Source: Chloroflexota bacterium
Lineage (GTDB): Bacteria; Chloroflexota; Anaerolineae; J102
Direction: 5' to 3'
Assembly: GCA_013151415.1 (NCBI GenBank)
Contig: JAADII010000175.1
Coordinates: forward strand, 10,352 to 48,133
DNA: 37,782 bases
Numbering within the stretch: position 1 is the stretch's first letter; each line of letters starts with the position of its first letter. The notes under the pieces are model-generated. The model was not told the origin of the DNA. It saw nothing but the letters and a program-made list of their open reading frames with translations, and did no database searches. Both the position numbers and the translations under genes were made by a program. Below, piece by piece: positions 3,115 through 34,959 of this stretch.

Positions 3115-3765
3115 ATGCCCGCCACCACTGTCTTTCTGGTCGATGATCATCCTTCGGTATTATGGGGCCTACGCGCGGCTTTAGAGCAGGCTCCCCATGC
3201 ACGCGTGATCGGTGCAGCCCAATCTCTCGACAGAGCGCGCCCTCAGATCCGACAGTTACAACCCGACGTGATTGTGGTGGACTTCAAATTGCAGGAAAAT
3301 TCCGGTGTGCAACTCATCCAGCAGTTACGCGACGATGGGGTCTCCAGTGCGGTCATTTTCCTTAGCGCCTACAATCATCCGGGCTATATGCAACAAGCGT
3401 ATCGTAGCGGCGCGTTGGGCTACATTCTCAAAGATGACTCGTTGGATGTCATCGTGCGCGCGGTGCAATGGGCGCATCAGGGCATTCCATTCTGGAGCGA
3501 AGAGCAATTGGAACGTATTCGCGAATGGGAAGAAGAGGTAATCGCGATCTGGCGCACCCTCACCCCCCGAGAGCAAGACGTATTGCGTCTGCTTGCTGAG
3601 GGGAAAAGAAACCAGGAAATATCCGAGAGCTTGAACATATCCGCGCGCACCGTCGAGTATCATGTGACCAATCTCATGAACAAATTGGGGCTTCATTCGC
3701 GAACCGAAATCATGGCCTGGATGCGGAAGCTGGAAAGCGTCGATCTATTGAACCCCGAACGGTGA
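3115..3765 (+). CDS. NarL/FixJ-family response regulator
   Basis: The 216-residue protein has a receiver domain (about 4-121) and a LuxR-type helix-turn-helix domain (about 148-208). The acidic pocket is D10/D11, the phosphate-accepting Asp is D56 in VVDF, Ser84 fills the Thr/Ser position, and K106 is the conserved Lys in YILKDD. The HTH block runs from LTPREQDVLRLLAEG to SARTVEYHVTNLMNKLGL. It should act as a phosphorylation-controlled transcription factor. No histidine kinase is next to it. The gene stops seven bases before an ABC ATPase gene, so the two are probably co-transcribed and the ATPase may be its target. I see no clear ribosome site before the ATG; translation may be leaderless or use a weak site. 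Confidence 0.92.
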   Translation: MPATTVFLVDDHPSVLWGLRAALEQAPHARVIGAAQSLDRARPQIRQLQPDVIVVDFKLQENSGVQLIQQLRDDGVSSAVIFLSAYNHPGYMQQAYRSGALGYILKDDSLDVIVRAVQWAHQGIPFWSEEQLERIREWEEEVIAIWRTLTPREQDVLRLLAEGKRNQEISESLNISARTVEYHVTNLMNKLGLHSRTEIMAWMRKLESVDLLNPER

Positions 3766-11091: not shown

Positions 11092-11781
11092 CTACGGTTC
11101 ATGCGTCGTGTGCGCCAGATAGTGTTGGCAGATGTCATTGAGCGCGCACGCTTCACATCGCGGGATCCGGGCGCGGCAAACGCCGCGGCCGTGCCGAATG
11201 AGATTCAGATGCAATGAATAAAACCACTCAGCCGGCGCGGCCTGCTCGACAATGGCCATGATCTGGTCGGGCGAGGCTTTGGCCGGCGCGACGCCCACGC
11301 GACGCAACACGCGACCCACATGAGTATCCACCGGAAAAGCGGGAAGACCCAAGCTAAAAAGCAGCACAATGGAGGCGGTTTTTGCGCCAACGCCATCCAG
11401 CGAGGTGAGCCACGCCCGGGCCTCCTCGAGTGAGAGTTCGGCCAACCAGTCTAGATCGAATTCGCCGCGCGTTTCATATATTCGCCGCAATGCATGTTGG
11501 ATGCGCTGCGCTTTTTGATTGGCCAACCCGCCAGAACGAATGACTTCGGCCAACTCATGGGTGGGCGCGGTCATCACGGCCATCCAATCGGGATAGGTCT
11601 CTTGCAGTGCATCGAACGCGCGAAGCGCATTGACATCGTTCGTGTTTTGGCTGAGAATCGTGACCACCAGCTGCCTGACCGGATCGCGACGACGACGCCA
11701 ACGGCGAACGCCGTACTGCTCGTGCAAACGTTCATAGACAGCCTTTATAAGGGCCTTGACAACGGTGTTGGGATCAGACAT
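11092..11781 (-). CDS. nth: Endonuclease III-like DNA glycosylase/AP lyase
   Basis: This 229-residue base-excision repair enzyme removes oxidised pyrimidines and cuts the abasic site. The helix-hairpin-helix carries the catalytic Lys134 (SLDGVGAKTAS) and is followed by catalytic Asp152 (FPVDTHVGR). The 4Fe-4S loop near the C-terminus has the exact C-x6-C-x2-C-x5-C spacing (Cys202, 209, 212, 218). I start at 11781: the ATG there overlaps the end of the VOC gene by eight bases, and the longer open stretch upstream lies inside that gene. The overlap implies a shared transcript with the VOC protein. Confidence 0.92.
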   Translation of the reverse strand: MSDPNTVVKALIKAVYERLHEQYGVRRWRRRRDPVRQLVVTILSQNTNDVNALRAFDALQETYPDWMAVMTAPTHELAEVIRSGGLANQKAQRIQHALRRIYETRGEFDLDWLAELSLEEARAWLTSLDGVGAKTASIVLLFSLGLPAFPVDTHVGRVLRRVGVAPAKASPDQIMAIVEQAAPAEWFYSLHLNLIRHGRGVCRARIPRCEACALNDICQHYLAHTTHEP

Positions 11782-12118
11782 TTTCTTGCAAAAGGATGAG
11801 CCGGTAACCATCGGGATCGAGGATGTTGACATAGCGGGCCCAGCCCTCATCAATGGGATCGGGAACGTGAACGCCGTAATCTCGCAATCGCTTCAGTCGT
11901 TCGTCCAAATCAGGCGCAGCAATGGCGACAAAGATATTGGCGGGCAAAGGTCTACCAACAGCCAGATACAATTTGCTGTTGCCCAGATGCACAACGGCCA
12001 GGCTATCCGACTGTTCTTGCACAGGAAGGCCGAGAGCCACGCGATAATAGTCCACCGAGCGGATAAGATCGGCAACCTCCAGCCAGAGAAAGTGGAGTGT
12101 GGGATCGGGAATAGCCAT
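11774..12118 (-). CDS. VOC-superfamily (glyoxalase/dioxygenase fold) protein
   Basis: This 114-residue single VOC domain begins LHFLWLEVADLIRSVDYYRV and ends VNILDPDGYRLILLQE, the two beta-alpha-beta-beta-beta halves of the fold. Metal-ligand candidates are His near residue 9 and the final Glu in LLQE. Proteins of this type include glyoxalases, ring-cleaving dioxygenases and resistance proteins; the substrate cannot be read from sequence. The ATG at 12118 gives a typical domain start; sequence upstream to 12196 is open but not domain-like. It overlaps nth by eight bases. Confidence 0.8.
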   Translation of the reverse strand: MAIPDPTLHFLWLEVADLIRSVDYYRVALGLPVQEQSDSLAVVHLGNSKLYLAVGRPLPANIFVAIAAPDLDERLKRLRDYGVHVPDPIDEGWARYVNILDPDGYRLILLQENV

Positions 12119-18383: not shown

Positions 18384-21452
<3,069 letters not shown>

Positions 21453-21552
21453 CCGGGAGCATCTGGACCGGTTGCAACGCGATTTTCAACCCGCACACGC
21501 GGCTCAACGCTGTATAGCCTACAGCCATCGCGGCCATAATGAGGTAAAATTC

Positions 21553-21580
21553 AGGAGCGTGGAGTTTTCTCCGCGCTCCT
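21553..21580 (+). promoter_or_regulatory. Strong 12-bp hairpin in the leader of the CstB-like gene
   Basis: aggagcgtggag and ctccgcgctcct pair over 12 positions (one G-T pair) around a tttt loop, ending 36 bases before the ATG at 21617. The bases after it (aaaatgc) are not a T-run, so it is not a standard plus-strand terminator. It could block read-through partly, protect a processed 3' or 5' end, or control translation of the last gene. Confidence 0.6.
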
Positions 21581-21616
21581 AAAATGCTTGTTTATTTCCG
21601 TTTCAAGGAGAACGTT

Positions 21617-23041
21617 ATGTGGTTTGAAACCATTATCCGTGAAGAGACGGGCTGCGCGGCCTATATGGTCGGTTGCCAACGCACCGGCGAGTGCATGGTG
21701 TTCGACCCCCTGTGGGACATCCAGCCCTATCTCGACATGGCGAAAGAAAAGAAATCGCGAATCCGCTACGTGATCGACTCGCACAGTCATGCGGATCACG
21801 TCTCGGGCGCGCGACGTCTGGCCGAGGCCACGGGCGCGGAGCTGATCCTGCCCGAACTGGCCGACATCACCTACGAGGCCACGCGCGTCAAGCACGGCGA
21901 CATGATCCGCATGGGCGGCGTGGGCATCGAGATCGTGCATGTGCCCGGCCATCGCCCTGAGCAGATCAACGCGCTCATCTACGATTTCCCGCGCGGGGAC
22001 GAACCCTGGTTCATTCTCACTGCCGACTTCGTGCTGGTGGGCGATGTGGCCCGGCCCGACCTGGCCCAGCCCGGTGAGGAGGGCGCGCCTGTGCTCTACG
22101 ACGTGTCCATCCCCCGCTTCTTGAACCTGCCCGATCATGTCGAGGTTTATCCCGGCCATCTTGCCGGCTCGACCTGAGGACGCGTCACCAGTGGCAAGGT
22201 TGTCACGACGGTTGGGTATGAGCGGCGCTACAATCCGGCGCTGAACTTCAAAGATCGGGACGCGTTCGTGGCCTATATGCAGGAGGATCAGCCCGTCAAA
22301 CCGGCCAACATCCTCAACATTGTGGCCACCAATCAGGGACGCTTGCCCCTGACCATGGAAACGCCGGTGGCGAAACCGTTATCGCCGCAACGCGTGGCCG
22401 AACTGATCGAGCAAGGGCACATCATCGTCGATGCGCGCTCGACGGCCGAATTCGGAGCCGAACACATTCGCGGCGCGTTCAATATCCAGCTTTCGAGCAA
22501 GGAGTTCGAGCAACGCGTGGGCTGGATGACGCCCGCCGACGCGCCCATCATCCTGGTGACCAACACAGCCGAAGAGGCCCAGCGAGCCATCTACAACATG
22601 GCCTTCATCGCCCTGGACAGTCGCGTGGCCGGCTATCTGGACGGCGGCATGGACGCATGGATCGAATCAGGCCATCCGGTGGAAAGCGCGCCCCAGATAG
22701 ATATTCATGACCTGTATCATCGCCTGTCCAGCAACGGCCTGCAGGTGCTGGATGTGCGCGACAAGGAGGAGTGGGAAGAGGGACACATCGCCGGCGCTCA
22801 CTTCATGCCCTACACCTCGCTGGTTCCCCAGCTCGATGTGCCGGCCCGCATCGGCGAATTGCCTTTCTCGCCCGACCAAAGCATCGCGGTGGTCTGCGCC
22901 ACAGGCAAGCGTTCGAGCACGGCCGTGAGCGTGTTGCTGCGCGAGGGATATCGTAAGCTTTACAACGTGGTGGGCGGCATGACGGCTTGGAAAGCGGCCG
23001 GTTTGCCCATGGTGGATGAGGACGGCGAGCCGGTGGAATAA
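21617..23041 (+). CDS. cstB: CstB-like persulfide dioxygenase/sulfurtransferase, candidate selenoprotein (in-frame UGA = Sec187)
   Basis: Read through one TGA at 22175-22177, this is a 474-residue protein laid out like Staphylococcus CstB (about 444). The MBL domain (1-187) has ligands SHSHADH (His56, His58, Asp60, His61), His112, Asp137 and His181. A rhodanese-like domain (about 255-352) lacks the Cys (VTNTAEEA). A rhodanese domain (about 362-465) has Cys427 in VVCATGKRSS. The family motif after the last His is PGHxAGSxCG; here it reads PGHLAGST-UGA-GR, so the stop replaces the conserved Cys. Codons after the TGA still encode the family segment TVGYERRYNPAL, with no further stop. AAGGAG precedes the ATG. 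If UGA is not recoded, the gene is a truncated MBL plus an orphan rhodanese with a GTG start at 22268 and no ribosome site. Confidence 0.8.
22175..22177 (+). other. In-frame UGA at a conserved Cys position, candidate selenocysteine codon
   Basis: This TGA is the only stop within the 475-codon frame 21617-23041. It is one base change from a Cys codon and sits at the family Cys. TGA ends many other genes here (recD2, metG, nth-side VOC), so it is not generally reassigned to Trp. Confidence 0.75.
22178..22212 (+). promoter_or_regulatory. Candidate bacterial SECIS element
   Basis: Immediately after the UGA the RNA can fold into a lower stem CGUC/GACG (22183-22186 with 22207-22210), a 4-nt 5' bulge ACCA, an upper stem GUGGC/GUCAC (22191-22195 with 22202-22206, one G-U), and a 6-nt loop AAGGUU (22196-22201). 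The loop starts 18 nt after the UGA. In E. coli fdhF the 6-nt loop AGGUCU starts 17 nt after the UGA. Such an element recruits SelB with Sec-tRNA. Folding was done by eye; no energy was computed. Confidence 0.65.
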
Positions 23042-23052
23042 GCCAGTCTCTG

Positions 23053-23085
23053 GACGATGAGACGAAAGGATGATGGGACGATGGC
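23053..23085. repeat. Short GACGATGG-type repeat
   Basis: Just past the end of the sulfur operon the text repeats imperfect gacgatgg/gatgatgg units. A similar stretch occurs at 37580-37604 upstream of the ABC-2 ATPase gene. It is non-coding and lies in intergenic DNA in both places. Confidence 0.5.
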
Positions 23086-23138
23086 CACTCCCTCAGAATC
23101 CCGTCGTCCTTTTTCGCGGCGCTTGTTTTTATGCACAC

Positions 23139-23174
23139 AGGCGGTCTGGTCGGATGGCCAGGCCGCCTATTTTA
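23139..23174 (+). terminator. Strong intrinsic terminator of the sulfur operon
   Basis: A 13-bp stem (aggcggtctggtc / ggccaggccgcct, with two G-T pairs) around a 4-base ggat loop is followed by attttactt. It closes the operon 98 bases after the last stop. Confidence 0.85.
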
Positions 23175-23248
23175 CTTGCACCATTGACATAGCATACAAT
23201 AGTGGCTGCCGACGTTATCGACCCGCGTAGGGTTCAGGAGGATGCACG

Positions 23249-23662
23249 ATGCAAAAGCGCGAATTCAGTGGTCCGGTCGCCACATTGACTGCTACAAACG
23301 ATGTTTTGGTTTCACCTCTTTCGCCAGAAGAAGTGGAGCAGCTTTTACGCGGAATTCAAAAAGCGTATATTCTTCCACACTCTAACGATGTCGTCCGGTT
23401 CCTGCGCGAGCATCCTTCACTTATCGAGATCGTTCAAAAGGCCGCGGTTGCTTTGCGGCAAATATTTGGATTCGAGGCTCCGCTCACACTTGAACTATTC
23501 CACGATCCCGACACCGAGGATACAGAGCTTTTCGCGCTTGTTCATAGTGACGAACCCGTAGACGCGGCGCTGGCTAAATTGCAAATGTTCGATGAGACAT
23601 GGTTCCTCGATCAGCAGCCATTGATCGATGGTCTTTTCAATGTTGATGTCGTGTTCTCATGA
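23249..23662 (+). CDS. Hypothetical protein, partner of a HEPN gene
   Basis: The 137-residue acidic product is not recognised. It has an N-terminal block SPLSPEEVEQLLRGIQKAY, a predicted helical middle, and a C-terminal part with WFLDQQPLIDGLFNVDVVF that looks like an alpha/beta domain. Its last four bases overlap the ATG of the HEPN gene (ATGA at 23659-23662), so the two are translated together, the usual layout of toxin-antitoxin pairs. HEPN toxins are often paired with a nucleotidyltransferase (MNT), but the G-S-x10-D-x-D motif of that family is missing here. AGGAGG lies before the ATG. The sulfur-operon terminator separates it from the genes upstream. Confidence 0.7.
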   Translation: MQKREFSGPVATLTATNDVLVSPLSPEEVEQLLRGIQKAYILPHSNDVVRFLREHPSLIEIVQKAAVALRQIFGFEAPLTLELFHDPDTEDTELFALVHSDEPVDAALAKLQMFDETWFLDQQPLIDGLFNVDVVFS

Positions 23663-24036
23663 GTTTTGACTGGACGAACTATATTCGGCTCGCCGAGGCC
23701 CTGGAACGCGAAGCCGGTCTTTTTTCTGATGAGGAGGCTTGTTTGCGCTCCGCCATCAGTCGCGCCTATTATGGCGCGTTTGGTTTGGCGAGAGATGTCG
23801 CCGTATCCCAGGATGGTCTAATTCTCTCTCGTAGCCCCAAAGATCACGTCCGGGTGATTGCTCACTTTCGCCGTTCGTCTCAAAAGACGCGACGGCGGAT
23901 CGGCCTTGATCTGGATCGGTTGAGAAGGGTGCGAAATCGAGCGGATTACGAAGCGCTTCTTCTCAAGCCGAAGCAAACCACGGCCACCGCTCTACGCCGC
24001 GCTCAGGGAATCGAGCGTGAACTCGATCGTTTGTAA
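23659..24036 (+). CDS. HEPN-domain protein (possible RNase toxin)
   Basis: The 125-residue product is a single helical HEPN domain, with AISRAYYGAFGLARD in the first half and RRVRNRADYEALL in the second. The second block is the site where catalytic HEPN RNases have R-x4-6-H; here the His position is Tyr, as in many HEPN proteins of the PF05168 type, so cleavage activity is uncertain. It overlaps the upstream gene by four bases, which supports a two-gene toxin-antitoxin or regulatory module. Starting at ATG 23659 gives the typical domain start. The DUF2283 gene follows after 30 bases. Confidence 0.75.
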   Translation: MSFDWTNYIRLAEALEREAGLFSDEEACLRSAISRAYYGAFGLARDVAVSQDGLILSRSPKDHVRVIAHFRRSSQKTRRRIGLDLDRLRRVRNRADYEALLLKPKQTTATALRRAQGIERELDRL

Positions 24037-24066
24037 ATTATGCGAGTGAACCCCAAGAGGAGCGCT

Positions 24067-24288
24067 ATGAAGATCACATATGATCCTGAAGTGGATGCTC
24101 TCTATATTCAGTTTTTGGACGCGACCGTGAACACCAAACATCTGACCGGAGGAATTGCCGCGGATTATGACAGCGAAGGCCGTTTGGCCGGAATCGAAAT
24201 ACTTGATGCACTCAAACGCTTTGGCGATCTCCAGACGTTGCGCCAGGTAACGTTGGAAGACGTGGGTTTGGTGATACCGGAAAGCTAA
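24067..24288 (+). CDS. DUF2283 family small protein
   Basis: This 73-residue protein starts MKITYDPEVDALYIQF and contains GGIAADYDSEGRLAGIEILDA, the recognisable pattern of DUF2283. The family has no established function and is often found next to toxin-antitoxin-like or mobile genes. I start at 24067, with GAGG nine bases upstream; an ATG at 24040 is in frame but poorly placed. It lies directly behind the HEPN gene and may be part of that module. Confidence 0.85.
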   Translation: MKITYDPEVDALYIQFLDATVNTKHLTGGIAADYDSEGRLAGIEILDALKRFGDLQTLRQVTLEDVGLVIPES

Positions 24289-24336
24289 AGTCGGACAAGC
24301 GCTCCGTAACTGCAAAGAGATTCCACTTCAACCAAA

Positions 24337-27300
24337 ATGAAGAATCATATGATACAAAGAAACGAGCAGAGCAGTCCCGTCCAAACTTACGAACGCCTCC
24401 ATGCCATTGCACCCCGTTTTTTGAAAAAGGTGCAACATAGCGCACGGACTGCGCATAATGAGGCCGAATTTGAGCGGGATATGAACAACGCCATCGAGGA
24501 GGTGGCTCGTAGTTTGGGCGTCGATTTGCTCTTTCGTCAACAATACACCCTTGCTACCGGACGCGCGGACGCGGTCTACAATCGCTTCGTCATCGAATAT
24601 GAACCTCCGGGCTCGCTGCGCGCGAACTTAGGTCACGGCCACACCAAACACGCGGTGCAACAAGTAAAAGATTATCTCGCGGGCCTGGCCGGAAAAGAAC
24701 GTCATGATCGAGACCGCCTTTTGGGAGTGGCGTTTGACGGTCATTTCTTCATTTTTGTACGGTATCATGCCGGTCATGTCATCGTCGAAGAACCGTTGGT
24801 TGTGACTGCAGGTTCGGTCGAGCGTTTTTTGCGCTCCCTGTTTTCACTTTCATCGGGCCGCGCCTTGATTCCCGAAAACCTGGTGGAGGACTTTGGCCAC
24901 CGAAATCTATTGTCGCACCAGGTGACGCGAGCGCTTTACAATGCATTGGAAGATCGCAGTGACGATTTGACGGCCAAACTTTTCGCCCAATGGCAGCTTT
25001 TTTTCAGCGAGGTGGCCGGATATGAAGCGGCTTCAGGTCGCCTGAAGCACAAAAAACAACTTCAGTCCTTTATGCGAGGCATGGGGTTGAATCCCACTAC
25101 AGTGGACGCGCCTCGTTTTTTCTTTGCCCTCCAGACCTATTTCTCCTTCCTGGTCAAGAATATTGCCCGCCTGGTGCTCCAAGCCTATGCCGGCGGCGCA
25201 TTTGGCGCCACACCGTTAACCACCATCGCCAACCTGCGCGGGGAGGATTTACGCCGCGAACTGGAAAACATGGAGAGCGGCGGCATTTTTCGCGCCCTGA
25301 GATTGAAAAATCTTTTGGAAGGCGATTTCTTTTCCTGGTATCTGAACGCCTGGGATGAGGAAATTGAAGTGGCGCTGCGACAAGTGCTATCACGGTTGGC
25401 CGAATACAATCCTGTGACGGTACAAGATGATCCCTACTCGGCTCGCGACCTGCTCAAAAAGCTTTATCACTATCTGTTGCCGCGCGAGATTCGGCATGAT
25501 CTGGGCGAATTTTATACGCCTGATTGGCTGGCCGAGCGTCTTCTAATGCAATTAGGCGAGCCATTGTTCCAAATGCCTCGGCCCGGAGCCAGGGTGCCCA
25601 CTCCCAACAAACGTTTGCTCGATCCGGCTTGCGGTTCGGGCACGTTCCTGATTCTGGCCGCTCGCGCGCTTAAGGCCAATTGCTTTCAGGCCGGGTTGGC
25701 CGAAGCCGACACGCTGGACGTAATCTTGCGCAACATCGCCGGCATCGACCTAAATCCCCTGGCCGTAATGGCGGCCCGGGTCAACCTCTTGCTCGCCGTG
25801 GCCGATCTGTTGCCCTATCGTCGCGGTGAGGTGGAGCTTCCCATTTACCTGGCCGACAGCATCCTCACGCCAAGCCGGGGCGACAATCTATTCGAGCAAG
25901 ACCGCCGCATACTGGAAACCGCGGTGGGTCGGTTGCCCGTGCCCGATGTGATCGACACTCGGGCCGAGATGGAGAAGCTGACCGATTTGCTCGAGGAATA
26001 TGTGCGAGGGGAATTTGCGCTCGACGCCTTTTTGGCGCGCTGTCGCCAAGACCTCCCCGACGTGGTTGCCAACCCACACAGCGAAGCAGTGCTGCAAGAG
26101 TTATTCGAACGATTGAGCGATTTGCACAGACGGGGGATGGATGGCATTTGGGCGCGGGTGCTCAAGAATGCGTTCATGCCCTTGTTTTTGCAGCCTTTCG
26201 ATTACGTGGTGGGCAATCCGCCCTGGATCAATTGGGAGACGTTACCGCCCGGATACCGGGAACAGGTGGCTCCGCTATGGAAGGAATACGGTCTGTTTCA
26301 ACACAAAGGTTTCGATGCGATATTGGGCAAGGCCAAAGATGATCTTTCCGCGCTGATGACTTATGTGGCGGCCGATCGTTTTTTGAAAGATGGTGGCAAG
26401 CTGGGCTTTGTAATTACCCAAAGCGTGTGGAAGACCGCGGGTGGGGGACAAGGCTTTCGCCGCTTTCGAATCGGCGCGAAAGGCGCACATCTGCGTATAT
26501 TGCATGTGGACGATTTGAGTAGCATCCAGGTCTTCGAGGGCGCGAGCACACGCACCAGCGTGTTTGTTCTGCAAAAGGGCGAAGCCACCCGCTACCCGCT
26601 CCAATACACCTATTGGAAGAAGACGACCCGGGGCAAAAGGCTGGATTATGATAGCACGCTGGAAGAAGTGTTGGAACAAACCAAGCAATTACAATTTCTT
26701 GCTGCTCCGGTAGATACGGATAATCTAACTAGTGCCTGGCTGACAGCGAGGCGAAATGCTATTAGTGCACTGAGAAAAGTCCTTGGCAAGTCACCGTATC
26801 GCGCTAGAGAAGGGGCAAATTCTGGTGGAGCAAATGCAGTTTTCTGGCTTGAGATTCTGGCCGAGCGGCCTGATGGTTTGGTGGTTGTTCGGAACGTGAC
26901 CGAAGGAGCCAAACGCAAGGTAGAGGCCGTAACCGTGGAATTGGAGCCGGATTTGCTTTATCCGCTGTTGCGAGGTCGCGACGTGAAGCGGTGGCAAGCC
27001 GAGCCCAGATACCATTTGTTACTTACCCACCGGGAAGGGGATCGGCTCAATGCCATCCCCGAAGAGGAAATGCAGCGCTATTATCCAAAGACCTGGGCTT
27101 ACCTCAAACGCTTCGAGCAGCCCTTGCGCGAACGCTCCGGCTTCAAGCGCTACTTCACCCGCAAGGATAAAAAGACGGGCCAGATGATCGAAACCGGACC
27201 GTTTTATTCGATATTTAATGTAGGAGACTATACTTTTGCTCGTTGGAAAGTTGCGTGGCCTTGGATATCGAAATCACTTGTCGCAGCCGTGGTCGGCGAA

Positions 27301-27705
27301 TATCATCCGAGACAAATCGTTGTCCCCGAACACAACACTTCTTTTGTTAGTTTTGAAACAATCGAAGAAGCCCATTTTTTCTGTGCTTGCTTCAATTCTA
27401 GCATGGCGAATCTAGCAGCGCTTTCCTCATATTCGGGGGGTGGGGGAGGAATCGCTTCTCCTAAAGTAGTCGAAAGAATACGCGTGCCGAAGTATTTGCC
27501 TCTGGATTCCAATCATCAGCAGCTTGTACAACTTTCTATACACGCGCACGAACTTGCTCCAAAAGCTTATGCGGGTGACAAAGCGGCTCAGGCCGAGCTG
27601 CGAAAGGTGGAGGAGGAAGTGGACCGGGCCGCGGCCGCATTGTGGGGGCTGACCGAACAAGAATTGGCCGACGTGCGGGCGAGCTTGGAGGAATTGAGGG
27701 GGTGA
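24337..27705 (+). CDS. Large N6-adenine DNA methyltransferase with nuclease-like N-terminus (Type IIG/PglX-like)
   Basis: The 1122-residue protein has an N-terminal region (about 40-180) with a PD-(D/E)xK-like block GRADAVYNRFVIEYEPPG (Asp78, Glu87, Glu89), where the usual ExK Lys is absent. A helical section (200-400) follows, then an N6-adenine methylase core: motif I DPACGSGTF (429-437), GIDLNPLAVMAARVNL, and motif IV NPPW (627-630). The C-terminal part should hold the target-recognition domain (about 780-1070). It methylates adenine with SAM and may also cut DNA, as Type IIG enzymes do, or methylate only, as PglX does. The start is uncertain (24337 or 24349; no clear ribosome site). It is the first of seven close-set genes. 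Stretches near 26690-26830 and 27200-27560 are AT-richer than the rest. Confidence 0.88.
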   Translation: MKNHMIQRNEQSSPVQTYERLHAIAPRFLKKVQHSARTAHNEAEFERDMNNAIEEVARSLGVDLLFRQQYTLATGRADAVYNRFVIEYEPPGSLRANLGHGHTKHAVQQVKDYLAGLAGKERHDRDRLLGVAFDGHFFIFVRYHAGHVIVEEPLVVTAGSVERFLRSLFSLSSGRALIPENLVEDFGHRNLLSHQVTRALYNALEDRSDDLTAKLFAQWQLFFSEVAGYEAASGRLKHKKQLQSFMRGMGLNPTTVDAPRFFFALQTYFSFLVKNIARLVLQAYAGGAFGATPLTTIANLRGEDLRRELENMESGGIFRALRLKNLLEGDFFSWYLNAWDEEIEVALRQVLSRLAEYNPVTVQDDPYSARDLLKKLYHYLLPREIRHDLGEFYTPDWLAERLLMQLGEPLFQMPRPGARVPTPNKRLLDPACGSGTFLILAARALKANCFQAGLAEADTLDVILRNIAGIDLNPLAVMAARVNLLLAVADLLPYRRGEVELPIYLADSILTPSRGDNLFEQDRRILETAVGRLPVPDVIDTRAEMEKLTDLLEEYVRGEFALDAFLARCRQDLPDVVANPHSEAVLQELFERLSDLHRRGMDGIWARVLKNAFMPLFLQPFDYVVGNPPWINWETLPPGYREQVAPLWKEYGLFQHKGFDAILGKAKDDLSALMTYVAADRFLKDGGKLGFVITQSVWKTAGGGQGFRRFRIGAKGAHLRILHVDDLSSIQVFEGASTRTSVFVLQKGEATRYPLQYTYWKKTTRGKRLDYDSTLEEVLEQTKQLQFLAAPVDTDNLTSAWLTARRNAISALRKVLGKSPYRAREGANSGGANAVFWLEILAERPDGLVVVRNVTEGAKRKVEAVTVELEPDLLYPLLRGRDVKRWQAEPRYHLLLTHREGDRLNAIPEEEMQRYYPKTWAYLKRFEQPLRERSGFKRYFTRKDKKTGQMIETGPFYSIFNVGDYTFARWKVAWPWISKSLVAAVVGEYHPRQIVVPEHNTSFVSFETIEEAHFFCACFNSSMANLAALSSYSGGGGGIASPKVVERIRVPKYLPLDSNHQQLVQLSIHAHELAPKAYAGDKAAQAELRKVEEEVDRAAAALWGLTEQELADVRASLEELRG

Positions 27706-27710
27706 TAAAA

Positions 27711-28733
27711 ATGACAAGAAATGAGCCCAGATCACAATCCTCCCCAAATCTGTGGATGCGATCCGTGTCTTTTGTTGCACTTCGTGACCTCCTCGCTTTT
27801 ATTGCAGAACGTCCCGAAGGTTTGCGAGCGAAAGATATGGAAGAATTGGCGCGGCAAGAGCGAAAACTACGCACTCGAGATGGCCGTATTCCGTCCAAAA
27901 CAACAGTCTATCATTATCGAACCATCTTGTACCGATTGGGTATTTTGACTTATCACCGAAGACGCTATATAGTGAATCAAAGTAATCCAATTGTTCGCAC
28001 GCTAGTACAGCGTTTGAAACCTGGTTCATCTACTCTCTCCGTTCATGAACGCCGTCTTTTTTCTGAATTGGTAGTGGCTAATGTTGATTGTCGTTACTAT
28101 TTTTTCGACCTTTTCATGCCAAAACAGGACGTTTATGTACTCGAAGATTTCATCGCGCATGGCCGTCGCGTTGCATGGAAAAGTTACACTGATTCCAGTC
28201 GTCGTATGGTGCATCTTCGAAATCTGAATATCGAAAAGCGAGAGCGTTGGCTTCAAACAGAAGATGAATTTCAAGCCATTCTATACGGAATACGATACTG
28301 GGCGCGTAACGAGTTGGAATTCATAGATGAATTGTTCCTCGAGGATTTGGGAGGCGTGATGTTTCCTGTAACACTTACAGGGCCAGTTCCGGCCCCTGAA
28401 ATTACAGTCGCCTTGGCGAAAGCAGTAGATGATTCTCGAGAATGGACGATATTATCTGTACGTAAACTTGTCTACATGTGGGGGCCTCGCTATCATATTT
28501 CTTTGAAACGTATATTTCAAACACTATTATCCATATATAGAGACTACTCTGAGTATATCGTATTGATTCCGACATCAGAAGCATTTGCAACGATAACGGC
28601 TACTTCACCCGGTGCTGGAAACTATCAGCTACGCAGTTATTTGCGTGATTTCGAGGGCCGCTACATCTCACATATCCGTGTCCATCGAAAACTGAAGGAG
28701 GCGCTTCAATGGACGATGCTTACGCCCGCCTAG
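27711..28733 (+). CDS. Winged-helix protein of the defence-like cluster, unknown function
   Basis: The 340-residue product begins with a probable winged-helix DNA-binding region (about 15-90: ALRDLLAFIAERPEGLRA, then TVYHYRTILYRLGIL and the RRRYIVN wing). The rest is not recognised; it has many Tyr, Arg and Glu residues and no nuclease or ATPase motif that I can see. I start at ATG 27711, five bases after the methyltransferase stop, with a GGGGG-type ribosome site inside the end of that gene. Its last 25 bases overlap the ATPase gene, so the two are translationally linked. It is markedly AT-richer than the genes to either side, as are the next two, suggesting separate ancestry within the cluster. 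It may target the ATPase or regulate the operon. Confidence 0.7.
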   Translation: MTRNEPRSQSSPNLWMRSVSFVALRDLLAFIAERPEGLRAKDMEELARQERKLRTRDGRIPSKTTVYHYRTILYRLGILTYHRRRYIVNQSNPIVRTLVQRLKPGSSTLSVHERRLFSELVVANVDCRYYFFDLFMPKQDVYVLEDFIAHGRRVAWKSYTDSSRRMVHLRNLNIEKRERWLQTEDEFQAILYGIRYWARNELEFIDELFLEDLGGVMFPVTLTGPVPAPEITVALAKAVDDSREWTILSVRKLVYMWGPRYHISLKRIFQTLLSIYRDYSEYIVLIPTSEAFATITATSPGAGNYQLRSYLRDFEGRYISHIRVHRKLKEALQWTMLTPA

Positions 28734-29884
28734 AACTATGTTTCAACCCGTTTGAGCCAGCGGCAAGTGGTGTCCCCGTTTCAGGCGCTCTATGGGTTCC
28801 AGAGAGATGGTCTCAACCGCTCCAAAGATTTGTGGAGACTATGGAGGGCACTTCAGGAACGAAAGCTTATGCAATTTCCGGCGAATATGGAAGTGGCAAG
28901 ACTTACTTACTACGCTGGCTAGAGCGGGTGGAGTTGCCGCGACATCGAATTCGTCCCTTTTTCTTTGACAATCCCGGTGTGCGGTTCTACGACCTTGCCA
29001 ATACGCTGCTTCGTCAGATTGGGCGAGAAGAATTCGCAAAATCGCTTTGGGAATTCCTAAATCCTAAGTTACCCGGCTTTCAAGGTTCCCTATTTGAGGA
29101 TTCCTTTCAAGCATGGCTACTGAGTGTTAAAAAACACCGTCGCGAAAAAGAAGCGATCCGAGTCCTGTCCGAAGCAATGCAGACGAAGGGAGTCGCAGAT
29201 GATGAGGAGATTCGTTACAAATTGGGTCGATTAATTGTGGAAACATATGATCGACCTTATTTTGAGTACAAAGATTTCATCGCGGGCCGCCAAGGTTCTC
29301 TCGTGGCGGAAAAGGAGGAAGCGCCTTATTTCGCCACTATTCTTCGATCGCTTCGTCTTATTGGGAGTGCAGAGGCGTTGGCTTTCTTAATGGATGAGTT
29401 TGAAGAAATATCACTCCAAAAACGTTTAACCAAACGTCAGGCTCATGATTATTTGGCTACTATGAAACGACTGATCGGTCTTACCGAACATGAACAATTC
29501 TGGATTATTGTGGCTATGACACCTCAAGCGGCTGAGGTAACGGCAAAACTGGAACCAGCGCTTTGGCAACGGTTTGTCAGCCAGGGTAAACATCAGTTCA
29601 AGATTCCTCCATTGAACGACCAAGAGGCGAGAGAACTGGTTCGCAGACGCCTGAAAAATGCACGGCCTGAAGAAACGACAGCCAAGCCCCTCTTTCCATT
29701 TCCTGAAAACATGATGGAATTGTTTAGAAAAGATATTAAATCATCTCCACGAAAATTGGTCAAAGTATGCAGCCTTGCCATCGCTAAAGCAATTCAAGCA
29801 CCTGAGCAAGTGCAAATACCGTTTGGTGCTGAGTATCTTAGACAGATCCAAAAAGAACTTTATCCCCCTCCTTCAGTCGAGTAG
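28709..29884 (+). CDS. AAA/STAND-like P-loop ATPase
   Basis: The 391-residue protein has Walker A GEYGSGKT (58-65) and Walker B LAFLMDEFEE (Asp229, Glu230), with a sensor-like stretch FWIIVAMTPQA and a C-terminal helical domain, a plan like ORC/Cdc6 and other AAA ATPases that load or move partners on DNA. The N-terminal NPFEP block before the P-loop is common in this type. The start overlaps the upstream gene by 25 bases and has a perfect AAGGAGG site. In the cluster it sits between the winged-helix gene and the PIN gene. It may be the sensing or motor component; similarity to a named system could not be tested. Confidence 0.82.
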   Translation: MDDAYARLELCFNPFEPAASGVPVSGALWVPERWSQPLQRFVETMEGTSGTKAYAISGEYGSGKTYLLRWLERVELPRHRIRPFFFDNPGVRFYDLANTLLRQIGREEFAKSLWEFLNPKLPGFQGSLFEDSFQAWLLSVKKHRREKEAIRVLSEAMQTKGVADDEEIRYKLGRLIVETYDRPYFEYKDFIAGRQGSLVAEKEEAPYFATILRSLRLIGSAEALAFLMDEFEEISLQKRLTKRQAHDYLATMKRLIGLTEHEQFWIIVAMTPQAAEVTAKLEPALWQRFVSQGKHQFKIPPLNDQEARELVRRRLKNARPEETTAKPLFPFPENMMELFRKDIKSSPRKLVKVCSLAIAKAIQAPEQVQIPFGAEYLRQIQKELYPPPSVE

Positions 29885-29905
29885 TCAACGAGGAGCAACC
29901 GAGAG

Positions 29906-30727
29906 ATGAATTCCGATGCCCTCACTTTTCGTCCTACGATATTTCTTGACACAAATGCTTTGCAATTCGTTAGCTCATACCTTCGCCATGCCGAAAAGCT
30001 GGGATTGCCTCCCTTCAAGGGAGTGGGAAGACCAGACTATGAGAAGATTCAGACTACTCTCAGAGAGAAATTACCGAGAGGTGTTGTTGATTCGATCATG
30101 AAAGGTTGTCGTACTCTTGCGTTTCTCCAAGAACTGGCAGGTGACGATGAAATCAGTGGAGATATTTATGCTTCTCGATTAAGTAGGGCAGAGCTTCTTT
30201 TTGGAATCTTGGACGGACAGGCGCATGCTCGTTTAGCGCGAGAAGGTTTATCTTATAGAATGCGTCAACGCTTGAGGGATTTGAGTGAGTTGGTTTCGAG
30301 ATATTTAGAAAGACAAGATTATGAAGACCTACTACAAGAAGTAAATGGATTGTTCGAAATGCTTAAGGAGAAAGATGGGATTCGTATCGAATGGGTTGAG
30401 GAGAGTATTAGCGATTTTTCTTCAATAACTGTATTCTCAGAACTTCTACAAAGCAACGTTTTCCTTGACGTATTGGATTGTTGGATGTACGGCTGCGCCG
30501 TGGCTATACAAGCAGAAAAGATTATTACCTTTGATAATTATTTCAAACGCGTTATCAATCGAATACATAATGCACAAGGCGAAGAAGACTGGCTATATAT
30601 TCAATCTATCATAACAGATGAACTGGAGCGCTTAAATCCTGTGGCATCTCCTGTCACCTTGTCTTTGCCAGCAGCTTTTGATCCGCCTAGGACAGCCCCC
30701 TCCCTTTGGGAAGCAGACCATGCCTAA
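29906..30727 (+). CDS. PIN-domain nuclease-like protein
   Basis: The 273-residue product shows the acidic residues of a PIN fold in order: Asp15 in TIFLDTNALQF, Glu96 in SRAELLFG, Asp188/Asp191 in FLDVLDCWMYG, and Asp210 in IITFDNYF. PIN proteins are metal-dependent RNases or flap-type DNases. Between strands there is a long helical insertion (about 100-180), so it is larger than VapC toxins (about 130 residues) and no antitoxin gene is next to it. GAGGAGC before the ATG supports the start. It overlaps nurA by eight bases. In this cluster it is a candidate effector nuclease. Confidence 0.78.
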   Translation: MNSDALTFRPTIFLDTNALQFVSSYLRHAEKLGLPPFKGVGRPDYEKIQTTLREKLPRGVVDSIMKGCRTLAFLQELAGDDEISGDIYASRLSRAELLFGILDGQAHARLAREGLSYRMRQRLRDLSELVSRYLERQDYEDLLQEVNGLFEMLKEKDGIRIEWVEESISDFSSITVFSELLQSNVFLDVLDCWMYGCAVAIQAEKIITFDNYFKRVINRIHNAQGEEDWLYIQSIITDELERLNPVASPVTLSLPAAFDPPRTAPSLWEADHA

Positions 30728-31838
30728 CCCCTTTCAACCGCTCCAAGGCGCTCTGAACGCCCTGATCGCGAACGCTCAGGTCTTGCCCGCCACTGGCCAG
30801 GCCGTAATCGACATGGTCACGCCTGATCTGGAGGAAATCTATGATCAACGTACGACCGGCCAGGCCGTGATCGAAACGGTGTGGGAAACCGCTCCACGGG
30901 GGCTTTATCGCACCATACGGCCCATTCCGCGCTCCGAAGAACACGCCCTTCGTTACTTCGTGGATGGCTCGGCAAAGACCTATTTCATCGGCACGGTGCT
31001 GGAACAAGACCGCTCGACGCCGGTGCAAGTATCGCAGGTTGGAGCGGCCATGGTGCAACGAGAAGACGACGGTCGTATTCGAGTGGCCAACGCCAAACGA
31101 ACTATCTTGCTCACATTGGAGAAAAGTCAGGTTTCGGAGCAGCTTTGGCGGGAGGTTGAACGGGCCGTCCAGGGCGTGCCGGGTTATCAATTATGCGACA
31201 GCGCTACCAACAACAAGTACGCCGACGCCATGAATTTGCAAGAAGCCCGACCGCGGGGCGCCCATCGCGCCAACTGGCACATGCGTGAAATGGAAGTCGA
31301 ACTTGCTCGCGTCATCCCTCGCGATGGGGACGCCTGGCTGGTCATCGACGGTAGTTTAGGCAACGAATTCGAAACCTGGCGCGGCGCGCCACTCATCGGA
31401 GTCGCGAAAACTTTTCGTCGAGATAGCCGTTTCGAGTTAGGCAGTGGTCCTCGAGCCAAAAAACTCAACTTGTTTGGCCTACTCAAAGACTTGCAAGAAA
31501 ACCAGCGCACCATTGTGTTTCCTCGCAGCAATGAGGGCAAAATCGTGTTTTGGTACGTGCGCATTCGACCTCAAAAGGGACTGGACTATCCCCTGATGGG
31601 AGTTGTCAAAGTGGAAATGCCCAATCCGGATCGAGAACCGGTGGATAGCGCTTTGATCGACCGCATCAGCGGCTGGCTCATTGCCGAACGCACCGTAACG
31701 CCCTACGGCCGAGATAGTCGTTGGCACGCGCACTTATATCCGATCTATATCGCCGAGCGCGTCATACGTTCGCAATTCTACTCCGAAGCCGTGCTGAAAT
31801 CAGGCATTCGCTGGCCGTTTCAGCTTGCTACTCCATGA
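30720..31838 (+). CDS. nurA: NurA-domain nuclease
   Basis: The 372-residue protein fits NurA, the RNase-H-fold nuclease that works with HerA on DNA ends. The motifs are VDGS (Asp82) in RYFVDGSAKTYF, Glu190 in WHMREMEVELARVI, IDGSL (Asp210), the block LIGVAKTFRRD, and the C-terminal HLYPIYIAERV with His338 and Tyr340. I start at ATG 30720, which overlaps the PIN stop by eight bases and has GGGAAG upstream. The HerA-like gene follows after 11 bases, confirming the pair. In archaea the pair resects breaks; in bacterial islands it is found in antiviral systems. Confidence 0.85.
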   Translation: MPNPFQPLQGALNALIANAQVLPATGQAVIDMVTPDLEEIYDQRTTGQAVIETVWETAPRGLYRTIRPIPRSEEHALRYFVDGSAKTYFIGTVLEQDRSTPVQVSQVGAAMVQREDDGRIRVANAKRTILLTLEKSQVSEQLWREVERAVQGVPGYQLCDSATNNKYADAMNLQEARPRGAHRANWHMREMEVELARVIPRDGDAWLVIDGSLGNEFETWRGAPLIGVAKTFRRDSRFELGSGPRAKKLNLFGLLKDLQENQRTIVFPRSNEGKIVFWYVRIRPQKGLDYPLMGVVKVEMPNPDREPVDSALIDRISGWLIAERTVTPYGRDSRWHAHLYPIYIAERVIRSQFYSEAVLKSGIRWPFQLATP

Positions 31839-31849
31839 GGTGTTCGATA

Positions 31850-33535
31850 ATGGCAAAACAACCAGGCAAACCCATCGGACGCGGCTCCGCCACCGAGCGC
31901 GATCCAAACACCGCAGAGAAATTCAAATTCTGGATTCGGCCCGGGCAAATGGTTAACCCCTTCGACATCATCGCGGCCGAACATTTTCCCGCGCAGGCCG
32001 GAGCGGAATCCAGCTACACTTTTGGCCTGGTGACCAACATTCAGCACATCACCGATGCAGCCGGACATTTGGCCAATTTCATCTCCAATGACTTTGGCGA
32101 AGAGGTGGAGGAAACGCCCCAAACCCCGCGCCAGGGAACCAATGTGGCCGAAGCCACCGTGCTTTCCAACAGCGCTGACATTTACATGCCGATTCAAAAT
32201 GAAGCGCGAGTCTATTTCGCGGACGAAGACAAGATTCATCTGGCTTTGGGTATCGACGGCATACCTCCGCAACGCCGCGTGCCGGCCGGCCTCATTCAGA
32301 TGAGCAACGGGACTCAAGCTGTGGCTTACCTCGACCGTGATTTTGTGCTCGGTCCCGAGGCGGGCCATGTCAACATTTCTGGCATTTCCGGCCTGGCCAC
32401 AAAAACCTCGTATGCTATGTTCCTCATTCAGTCATTGCTACAAAGCAGCGATCATGAAAACATTGCCGTCATCTTGTTGAATGTAAAGTACGATGACCTG
32501 TTGTCTATCCACGAACCGCGTAAGTTGCAGGACAAAGAGCATCAGATATGGCAAAGGTTGGGATTAAAGCCAGAGCCCTGGCCGGAGGAGCGCGTTCACT
32601 ATCTACTACCCAATGGCAAGCAGACGCATACTACCGGCCGGCCTAACTCCTTCGCGGACCCACCACCGCCTCATCAAGTCTATGCTTACGCGCTGCGCGA
32701 ATCGGCCAATAAGCTCGATCTGCTCTTCTCCAATATTCCCGATCCAAACGGAACTATTAGCTCCGTCATCGGCGAAATCACGACAGGAATCGAGAATCGA
32801 GAGCGGGCCTGGCAAGCCGTTCACACATGGGATGATTTGTTGAGCAAACCGCCGTTGGTGCAACAGCGCATTCCCCAAAGATTCCGCAATATCCACGCTT
32901 CCAGTGTGGGCCGTTTTCTCCGGCTTTTGCGCCGCGTGGTCAAGACGCGACAATCCGGCATTTTTGTGTCTCAACTCTCAACACGTATGACGACCATCGA
33001 AAAGGAAATCGGCAATATCAAAGGAGGACACACCTATGTGGTGGACATTGCTCGACTCACCCAGGAGGAACAGACTCTTGTGTTCGGGGACGTGTTGCGC
33101 ACCGTCTATGGTTTGTACTCCGGCGAAACGTTGCCTCTCGATGACTATCAGCCGCCTGCAAAGGTCATCGTCTTTGTGGACGAATTGAACAAATACGCTC
33201 CGGCGCGAGGCCAAGGTGATCGCTCTCCCATCCTCGCACAAGTTTTGGACGTCGCCGAACGCGGACGTTCGTTTGGCATTATTCTTTTCTCAGCCCAACA
33301 GTTTCTCAGTGCGGTGCACGATCGCGTGACAGGGAATTCAGCAACCAAAGTGCTGGGGCGCACTGACAGCGCGGAAATCAACGCAGGCAACTACCGATTT
33401 CTTGCTCAGGACATCAAGTATCATTTAACGCGATTGGAAAAAGGGGAATTGATCTTATCCCATCCCATTTATCGCCAACCGGTGAAGATTTCATTTCCCC
33501 CGCCCCCTTATCGACAGGGAAGGGCAAAGCATTAA
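31850..33535 (+). CDS. herA: HerA-like hexameric translocase ATPase with altered P-loop
   Basis: The 562-residue protein has an N-terminal HAS-type barrel (about 25-165) and a RecA/FtsK-like ATPase. The Walker A position reads GISGLATKT (178-186), where Thr replaces the last Gly (GxxxxTKT in place of GxxxxGKT). Walker B is VFVDELNKYAPA (Asp444, Glu445). The motif FSAQQFLSAVHDRVTGNS and the C-terminal Arg-containing KVLGRTDSAEI fit HerA. It would pump DNA and drive the NurA nuclease. I start at 31850 with GAGGTG eight bases upstream; the frame is open from 31721 but inside nurA. The altered P-loop could be a lineage variant or a loss of ATP binding. Confidence 0.85.
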   Translation: MAKQPGKPIGRGSATERDPNTAEKFKFWIRPGQMVNPFDIIAAEHFPAQAGAESSYTFGLVTNIQHITDAAGHLANFISNDFGEEVEETPQTPRQGTNVAEATVLSNSADIYMPIQNEARVYFADEDKIHLALGIDGIPPQRRVPAGLIQMSNGTQAVAYLDRDFVLGPEAGHVNISGISGLATKTSYAMFLIQSLLQSSDHENIAVILLNVKYDDLLSIHEPRKLQDKEHQIWQRLGLKPEPWPEERVHYLLPNGKQTHTTGRPNSFADPPPPHQVYAYALRESANKLDLLFSNIPDPNGTISSVIGEITTGIENRERAWQAVHTWDDLLSKPPLVQQRIPQRFRNIHASSVGRFLRLLRRVVKTRQSGIFVSQLSTRMTTIEKEIGNIKGGHTYVVDIARLTQEEQTLVFGDVLRTVYGLYSGETLPLDDYQPPAKVIVFVDELNKYAPARGQGDRSPILAQVLDVAERGRSFGIILFSAQQFLSAVHDRVTGNSATKVLGRTDSAEINAGNYRFLAQDIKYHLTRLEKGELILSHPIYRQPVKISFPPPPYRQGRAKH

Positions 33536-33538
33536 CTC

Positions 33539-34795
33539 ATGTCTGGTTCATTGCCATCATTGCCGACCGGCTTCGAGTATCGCCTGGATTTATCCCGGCA
33601 TGTAACGCCGCGTCTCTTGCGTGACCAGGCCATCCATCGTTGGTTCTATTTTCCGCACAGTTTCTCGCCGCAACTGGTCCATATTCTCTTGGAAAAATGG
33701 GATGTTCCCTCCGGTGCATGGGTGCTGGACCCATTCGTTGGCGCCGGAACCACACTGTTGGCCGCTCGCGAGAAAGGGATTAATGCTCTGGGTATCGACC
33801 TCTCGCCTCTTTCGATTTTCGTGAGTAGGGCAAAAACGCGTCAATATGACTCGACGGAAATTTGCAAGGGTCTTGAATATGTTGAAAAAGCGATGCGAGA
33901 AGAACGGATGGTCGCCATAGATCGCCCGTCGCGACTTCAACGGGCCTTCACCGACGCTGAATACGCGATGCTGGCCCGAATTCGCCAGGCTATTGCGGAA
34001 CTTGCTCAATCCTCCCGCGACTTTCTTCTCCTGGCTTTGTTGCGCACTCAACGGCAATTCTCGCGAGCCGTTCCCGATGGCGGCTGGTTCCGATGGCGCG
34101 AATTGCCATCTTCAGAACAAGCAATTTGGCCAACATTTAGAAGAACGGTGGAGGAAATGCTCGGCGATCTGGCGGACACGCGACCTTACAAGGGGCTATG
34201 GACGGCGATCCGGCACGACGCACGCGCGCTCACTTCCTTGGCGACCAGGCATCCTTTTCTATTATCCGGTTGCCAGGCCATCATCACCTCGCCTCCCTAT
34301 CCCAATCGTCATGATTATAGTCGAATTTTTCAGATCGAATTATTGACGTTGGGACTGCAAGAACAAGATATCTTTGCCTTGCGCCATCATTCCCTCCGTT
34401 CCAACGTGGAAGCCCGAGCGCCCGAATACGCTCTTCCTCCTTTCGATTCTCCTCCTCAACTTATCGAAACCCTCAACCGCTTACCCGAAGATGCGGATCG
34501 TCGTATCGAACCCATGTTGCGGGGCTATTTCGAAGACATGAACGCCGTTCTTTACGCTACTTATCAAGCACTATCTCCCGGCGGTCACCTGGCCCTCGTT
34601 GTCGGCAATGTCCGTCATGCAGGCGTCATGGTTCCTGTGGACGTCATCTTACTCGAGATGGGTATGCGTCTGGGCTATCGGCCAGAAACATCCTGGGTGG
34701 CGCGCTTACGGGGTAACAGTGCCCAACAAATGGGTAGGTATGGCCGGATCCCGGCTCGAGAAAGTGTGGTCATCTTGCGAAAAGGCGACCATTAA
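33539..34795 (+). CDS. Second DNA methyltransferase (motif order I-IV, SPPY type)
   Basis: The 418-residue enzyme has motif I DPFVGAGTT (64-72), GIDLSPLS just after it, and catalytic motif IV TSPPY (250-254) in ITSPPYPNRHDY. SPPY is common among N4-cytosine methyltransferases, though some N6-adenine enzymes use it too, so the modified base is uncertain. About 180 residues between motifs I and IV are helical and may include target recognition. A late strand SPGGHLALVVGNVRH is motif V/VI-like. It begins three bases after the HerA-like stop and ends the cluster. With the first methyltransferase it gives the system two modification enzymes of different classes. Confidence 0.88.
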   Translation: MSGSLPSLPTGFEYRLDLSRHVTPRLLRDQAIHRWFYFPHSFSPQLVHILLEKWDVPSGAWVLDPFVGAGTTLLAAREKGINALGIDLSPLSIFVSRAKTRQYDSTEICKGLEYVEKAMREERMVAIDRPSRLQRAFTDAEYAMLARIRQAIAELAQSSRDFLLLALLRTQRQFSRAVPDGGWFRWRELPSSEQAIWPTFRRTVEEMLGDLADTRPYKGLWTAIRHDARALTSLATRHPFLLSGCQAIITSPPYPNRHDYSRIFQIELLTLGLQEQDIFALRHHSLRSNVEARAPEYALPPFDSPPQLIETLNRLPEDADRRIEPMLRGYFEDMNAVLYATYQALSPGGHLALVVGNVRHAGVMVPVDVILLEMGMRLGYRPETSWVARLRGNSAQQMGRYGRIPARESVVILRKGDH

Positions 34796-34892
34796 CCAAC
34801 TCGTCACAGGTCAATTGACCTGCTCGTTGCGACAAAAGGAAAAACGAACGCGGATTTGGTGGATGCTCGAGAAATTATCGGGGCTTATCCGC

Positions 34893-34935
34893 AAAAAACC
34901 TAAATCTCTGCGCCTGTTGCGTCTTAGCGTTTTTT
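34893..34935. terminator. Possible two-way terminator between convergent genes
   Basis: aaaaaac-ctaa (34893-34903) pairs with ttag-c-gtttttt (34924-34935), leaving one bulged C; a run of six T ends the plus strand and six A start it, so both strands would end in U-runs. The loop text (tctctgcgcctgttgcgtc) resembles a phrase I recall from intergenic repeats in many bacteria. Confidence 0.5.
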
Positions 34936-34959
34936 CGGGGCAAGCGCGTCTGAACCGGC

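Follow-up and report, generated by a model that had tools for sequence, protein, structure and literature searches.

The closest described counterpart of the locus analyzed here is the tdtA operon of ICETh1 in Thermus thermophilus HB27, where TTC1877-1880 encode a type IIG restriction enzyme, NurA, the HerA/FtsK protein TdtA, and an N4/N6 methylase and are co-transcribed (PMC5365140). In this strain, DNA donation is abolished by deletion of tdtA, reduced by 4-5 orders of magnitude by deletion of nurA, and reduced by about 3 orders by deletion of the IIG gene (PMC5365140); the methylase has little importance for donation (PMC7767461). A cluster of Thermus scotoductus DSM 8553 has been termed tdtA-like (PMC5365140). 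The TspDTI subfamily of IIG enzymes, with TthHB27I/Tth111II and TsoI among its members, is defined by the signature D-EXE, (D/P)PACGSG, and NPPW; the endonuclease activity of TsoI and related enzymes is weak, and the authors of the TsoI study propose a nonrestriction role (PMC3751577). In HerA/FtsK capture systems, HerA/FtsK is coupled to an Orc/Cdc6 AAA protein with an inserted inactive restriction endonuclease (REase), together with an active REase and a winged helix-turn-helix (wHTH) protein, and multi-wing proteins of the DndG/SspB/FokI kind pair with Orc/Cdc6-type ATPases (PMC10853773). Restriction-modification (R-M) can also be coupled to toxin nucleases such as PrrC (with PrrI), an arrangement discussed as immunity-suicide coupling (PMC3506569).

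The window, meaning the whole stretch of 37,782 nucleotides analyzed from a Chloroflexota genome, contains seven intact open reading frames (ORFs), g1 to g7, that run head to tail on the plus strand at 24337-34795. The operon and the block that holds it are laid out as follows.

24337..27705, plus strand: g1, type IIG restriction endonuclease-methyltransferase of the TspDTI subfamily, with relatives TthHB27I/Tth111II and TsoI (PADLOC, motifs)
27711..28733, plus strand: g2, winged-helix protein, possibly multi-wing, fast evolving (AF2 model, Foldseek/VIA-align, five homologues)
28709..29884, plus strand: g3, AAA ATPase, AAA_22/BrxD/ExeA-like (Walker A GEYGSGKT, Walker B DE)
29906..30727, plus strand: g4, PIN-domain nuclease, probable ribonuclease effector (Pfam PIN, invariant residues)
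30720..31838, plus strand: g5, NurA-family nuclease (Pfam NurA; adjoins HerA in nearly every related locus)
31850..33535, plus strand: g6, HerA/TdtA-type hexameric DNA translocase ATPase (PADLOC, PDB match, T. scotoductus identity)
33539..34795, plus strand: g7, N4/N6 DNA methyltransferase, apparently common to both gene sets (Pfam N6_N4_Mtase; DPFVGAGTT, TSPPY)
21500..34958, no strand: foreign block, approximate extent (synteny ends, GC)

Families were assigned with Pfam, PADLOC, and NCBIfam for g1, g3, g4, g5, and g7 and with PADLOC and a PDB match for g6. An original prediction, made from the nucleotide sequence, had described seven tightly spaced genes on one strand, and the ORFs indeed lie where it placed them, with spacings from g1 to g7 of 5, −25, 21, −8, 11, and 3 bases at the best starts. 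The co-occurrence search that it had proposed recovered the seven genes in identical order in two more genomes, a Kapaibacterium MAG (L052) and a Levilinea MAG (L056). The seven genes have diverged together among the carrier genomes; substitutions in all of them fall mostly at third codon positions, which indicates that all seven are under purifying selection. This bias, together with the recurrence of the gene order in two other genomes, excludes chance.

Four of the seven genes correspond to the tdtA operon. The order IIG-NurA-HerA-N4/N6 methyltransferase on one strand is kept in the window, interrupted by three added genes between IIG and NurA. Shared with the tdtA operon (IIG of 1106 amino acids [aa], NurA of 377 aa, HerA/TdtA, and N4/N6 methyltransferase of 410 aa) are also the tight spacing, an IIG enzyme of the TspDTI subfamily, and a GC content below that of the host genome. 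The g1 product matched REase_MTase_IIG at 1512 bits in PADLOC and N6_Mtase/Eco57I in Pfam, and its motifs are intact (nuclease D78..E87-Y-E89 as D-EXE, DPACGSG, and NPPW), so that it carries the full TspDTI-subfamily signature. The original prediction had counted g1 and g7 as two DNA methyltransferases; this holds for g7, but g1 is a complete type IIG restriction-methylation enzyme. For g5, the Pfam NurA match stood at 21.1 bits against a cutoff of 21, and g6 matched HerA at 34 bits in PADLOC and a PDB HerA entry at an E value of 3e-36. Relation to TdtA was gauged through the tdtA-like T. scotoductus DSM 8553 cluster (L062) and not HB27 TdtA itself, with identities to the window of 57% for HerA, 41% for NurA, and 48% for IIG.

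At an E value of 1e-8, 30 of 400 Chloroflexota genomes contained relatives of this HerA, and a GTDB scan yielded 80 named loci with them. The TdtA branch comprises 50 distinct loci from roughly 20 phyla, 38 of which have IIG, 46 NurA, and 21 the methyltransferase. Phyla are intermixed in the HerA tree, which shows that the HerA set has spread horizontally; L052 was left out of the evidence for cross-phylum transfer, as its phylum may reflect a binning error. A role of the pair as a DNA-repair HerA-NurA is unlikely, given that it accompanies R-M genes, is sporadic in Chloroflexota, and includes the single HerA match of the source genome. Several variants were observed alongside. A complete IIG-NurA-HerA-methyltransferase operon is present on a 42.6-kb IMG/VR contig (L133), and in L064, L091, and L092 IIG lies downstream of HerA, with related radical-SAM/B12-binding proteins recurring just past it. 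A second NurA-HerA branch, 37-42% identical to g6 (L037:7897-14216, L080:8104-9858, and L134-L137), has two more genes after the pair, which in L037 appear by eye to encode an HSP90-like (GHKL) ATPase and a radical-SAM protein; similar-sized genes follow this pair on four IMG/VR contigs, and Marinitoga camini virus 1 carries a HerA of the same type. This branch is possibly another system.

The three interrupting genes encode the winged-helix, AAA, and PIN proteins. No sequence family was found for g2 in Pfam, PADLOC, or NCBIfam, nor any sequence match to multi-wing proteins. Its N-terminal domain (residues 20-110) was modeled by AF2 as a winged helix with pLDDT of about 58-91, and the middle of the model fell under 50. 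In Foldseek/VIA-align comparisons, the N-terminal part aligned to MarR, PadR, and FokI (Z of 7.2 for FokI) and the C-terminal part to SspB (Z of 8.3), a level that unrelated models also reach; kinship of g2 with DndG/SspB/FokI multi-wing proteins may be taken from the model as a lead only. In g3, Walker A, Walker B, and an SPR motif are invariant over six homologues. The g4 match to Pfam PIN reached 22.8 bits against a cutoff of 23.6. An alignment of six g4 homologues down to 19% identity has seven invariant columns, four of which are D15, E96, D191, and D210, and T208-x-D210 likewise belongs to the nearly sole invariant residues. These four residues make up the acidic tetrad that an active PIN nuclease would be expected to have, and g4 is probably a ribonuclease effector. 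PDB profile searches with g2, g3, and g4 yielded no usable match; g4 matched BsoBI at an E value of 0.003. The HerA-NurA pair, PIN protein, ATPase, and winged-helix protein named in the original prediction were thus all recovered by Pfam, PADLOC, the PDB match, and the g2 model. In each comparison, conservation is lower for the wHTH and PIN proteins than for AAA, NurA, HerA, and IIG, a faster divergence that fits the expectation for sensors and effectors in conflict.

These three genes also occur apart from HerA-NurA. The AAA protein (g3) was found in 4 of 396 genomes, source included, in a class-wide scan. In locus L190, wHTH, AAA, PIN, and methyltransferase genes follow one another in this order with a tyrosine recombinase just upstream, and no IIG, NurA, or HerA was found in the 14 kb covered; downstream lie a methyltransferase that appears by eye to be of the DUF1156 type and further genes. 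In L189, the same four genes are intact and their products 81-85% identical to the L052 counterparts, whereas the others are reduced to the C-terminal 38 residues of IIG, the N-terminal 31 of NurA, and about 26 C-terminal residues of HerA, a deletion that, on a 7.7-kb MAG contig, could be an assembly artifact. A distant set in L191 (AAA 23%, methyltransferase 37%) has AAA-PIN facing methyltransferase-wHTH, with recombinases nearby. One further candidate AAA locus (L194 in genome G053) was dropped, being in appearance an ExeA-type ATPase without partners. The methyltransferase comes after HerA in 21 of the 50 related operons and after PIN in loci that lack HerA, which ties it to both gene sets. 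In the methyltransferase tree, the window copy groups with L054/L057 and not with L052/L056; this conflict with the HerA tree indicates that the methyltransferase has been exchanged.

Comparative genomics shows that the locus consists of two sets of genes, separable from each other but interleaved in a single operon, with one methyltransferase common to both. The original prediction of a single, possibly undescribed seven-part system does not survive, as four of the genes are the published tdtA operon and the other three are separable from HerA-NurA; its view of a composite that mixes modification, DNA-end processing, and an effector nuclease is supported. We found no description of the wHTH-AAA-PIN-methyltransferase set in the literature, and it is apparently undescribed. 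Tentatively, wHTH-AAA-PIN and a cognate N4/N6 methyltransferase might constitute a new stand-alone R-M-like immune system, in which methylation would mark self and the PIN ribonuclease would be the effector, merged here with a tdtA-type IIG-NurA-HerA operon so that the two have one methyltransferase between them.

The position of the interruption recurs. In three genomes (source, L052, and L056), wHTH-AAA-PIN is inserted between IIG and NurA in the same order and with tight spacing. Across related loci, inserts occupied 7 of 30 IIG/NurA junctions compared to 0 of 67 others (0/46 NurA/HerA and 0/21 HerA/methyltransferase; p = 0.00016, for a contrast picked after the data were seen). As judged from gene order, the IIG/NurA junction behaves as a cassette slot. 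In the HerA tree, the three wHTH-AAA-PIN carriers fall inside one seven-member clade, within which L054 and L057 (both without IIG) carry an AriA-like ATPase and a DUF4276-like gene, and L055 a transposase-like gene, in place of wHTH-AAA-PIN. The cargo in the slot or at the operon edge in other loci was as follows.

L089: AAA_21 ATPase
L077: DUF3800 protein
L093: MazF-like toxin
L076: AbiLi-like ATPase with TOPRIM DUF3226; GmrSD-HNH protein
L071: second GmrSD-like protein (by eye)
L064: OLD-like ATPase upstream of NurA
L072: NERD-helicase
L101, 1630-3810: N-terminal half of a DUF6079/BrxC protein (1260 bits), overlapping the IIG start by four bases

Some of this cargo resembles ATPases of the PARIS/AbiL type, and the BrxC half in L101 is possibly a BREX remnant attached to a tdtA-type operon. 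Among 100 near genes, 6 matched AAA_21/AAA_15, RecF being one of the six, versus no AriA match among 83 far genes (p = 0.025 with RecF still counted). The neighbor scan thus gives modest backing to a defense setting.

Comparison with named systems agreed with the original prediction that the markers of BREX, DISARM, and MADS are missing (Pfam, PADLOC, and NCBIfam). BREX was rejected with a best PglX match of 38 bits (versus 1512 for IIG), a BrxD match of 18 bits against a cutoff of 350, and PglZ and BrxC absent among the seven; DISARM was rejected on its markers DrmA, DrmB, DrmC, and DrmMI/II, with only a weak DrmMI match in g1 (25 bits); and MADS (MAD1-8) gave only generic mad2/mad8 matches, MAD2 being far below the NCBIfam cutoff. 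The HerA/FtsK capture (PMC10853773) and BREX-related capture (PMC12839542) systems resemble the window in their HerA-type pump, AAA ATPase, fast-evolving winged-helix protein, and nucleases. HerA, AAA, and wHTH parts are present in the window, where the g3 model (pLDDT 42) is too poor for use, including for placement in an AAA clade. Unlike these systems, the window has NurA, IIG, PIN, and a base methyltransferase, and no inactive REase or PglZ was found in it; a word search of the two articles returned no mention of NurA. PrrC/PrrI (PMC3506569) and PARIS likewise place an RNase-type or abortive effector within an R-M locus, whereas here the effector is a PIN protein, the AAA and winged-helix proteins are separate, and the set can exist independently, accompanied by its own methyltransferase. 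In the Ssp phosphorothioate system, SspBC similarly sets a winged-helix protein and an AAA ATPase beside a DNA-modification gene, and g2 has a weak structural match to SspB, a likeness below a safe level; in contrast to Ssp, the window has no SspA, SspD, or SspE, and its modifier is a base methyltransferase.

Toward the left, synteny with family members breaks off near 21427, and toward the right near 34959; the operon has a GC content of 0.516, below the 0.589 and 0.605 of its flanks. No integrase was found on the contig, nor a tRNA in the window, nor flanking att-type direct repeats like those of ICETh1; integrase matches of the source genome lie on other contigs. The synteny ends and low GC therefore mark a foreign block, yet not a recognizable ICE. 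A phage or plasmid origin was rejected on sparse matches: g3, g4, and g6 had none in plasmids, g3 none in phages, and g2 and g3 none in viral contigs, and g6 relatives occurred in two phages only in the phage search. Other features were noted. In a same-family genome (L173:101-890), the same ABC-transporter edge holds a different gene, DUF1828-like by eye, and this edge may serve more generally as an insertion spot. Three small same-strand ORFs at 23249-24288, the last a DUF2283 gene, immediately precede the operon and have the look of a toxin-antitoxin-type or mobile cassette. On the minus strand, an ORF at 11092-11853 scored 49.6 bits with a PADLOC model for type II nicking endonucleases. 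Another ORF, at 3115-3765, gave weak matches of the CARF3 type over its C-terminal part (37 bits).

We favor, with a probability of roughly 0.55, a restriction-type defense composite of two modules with one shared methyltransferase, in which the PIN ribonuclease serves as back-up or second effector. In the first module (g1, g5, g6, and g7), IIG would mark an asymmetric site in self DNA and cut or nick unmarked DNA about 11/9 nucleotides downstream of it; HerA and NurA would load at the break, translocate, and degrade foreign DNA, and g7 would contribute protective methylation. In the second (g2, g3, and g4, with g7), the wHTH and AAA proteins may keep watch on DNA or on the methyltransferase's state and hold PIN back until a foreign-DNA or anti-restriction signal releases it, whereupon RNA would be cleaved and cell or phage stopped. 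By analogy, the logic of wHTH-AAA-PIN would be that of PrrC. The steps after DNA marking, like the trigger, the PIN substrate, and the defense function itself, are those we infer. Several points weaken a defense role: our literature search found no phage-protection experiment for any member, the sole tested relative acts in DNA donation (PMC5365140), the TsoI kin of g1 are weak endonucleases with a proposed nonrestriction role (PMC3751577), defense-type neighbors are enriched only modestly, and the L189 deletion could be artifactual.

The HerA part could instead be a DNA-donation (transjugation) machine as in Thermus, with IIG nicking the donor genome at many sites, NurA-HerA pumping double-stranded DNA out, and wHTH-AAA-PIN riding along as a passenger toxin cassette that stabilizes the element. 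We consider this less probable, yet a serious rival for the HerA part. Donation, for which TdtA, NurA, and the IIG enzyme are required in HB27 (PMC5365140, PMC7767461), is the one function that has been demonstrated in a relative; the operon has a foreign composition; and the source genome has ComEC, needed for DNA uptake. Against this reading, the ICE hallmarks are missing here, phage-type integrases make up only 2 of 100 neighbor genes in related loci, and the cargo at operon edges is mostly defense or toxin-like, whereas a donation machine has no obvious need for AriA-like or GmrSD cargo.

A purely selfish cassette, in which IIG/methyltransferase and PIN act as postsegregational killing genes with no real antiviral benefit, is improbable. 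R-M and PIN genes can be addictive, and tyrosine recombinases flank L056 and L190; however, NurA-HerA and the AAA-wHTH pair would be superfluous for addiction, and no small antitoxin was seen beside PIN. Least credible is one obligate machine of all seven proteins, with wHTH-AAA targeting an IIG-NurA-HerA complex and PIN as a subunit: tight spacing and the same order in three genomes speak for it, but most operons lack wHTH-AAA-PIN, and L190 lacks IIG-NurA-HerA.

A widespread operon, studied so far only as a DNA-donation device of Thermus, is now tied to antiviral-type cargo, and the question of whether it is a gene-transfer machine or a restriction system becomes directly testable. The compact wing-AAA-PIN-methyltransferase set would represent a relative of restriction-modification that is armed with an RNase, and the cassette slot is a source to mine for more effectors.
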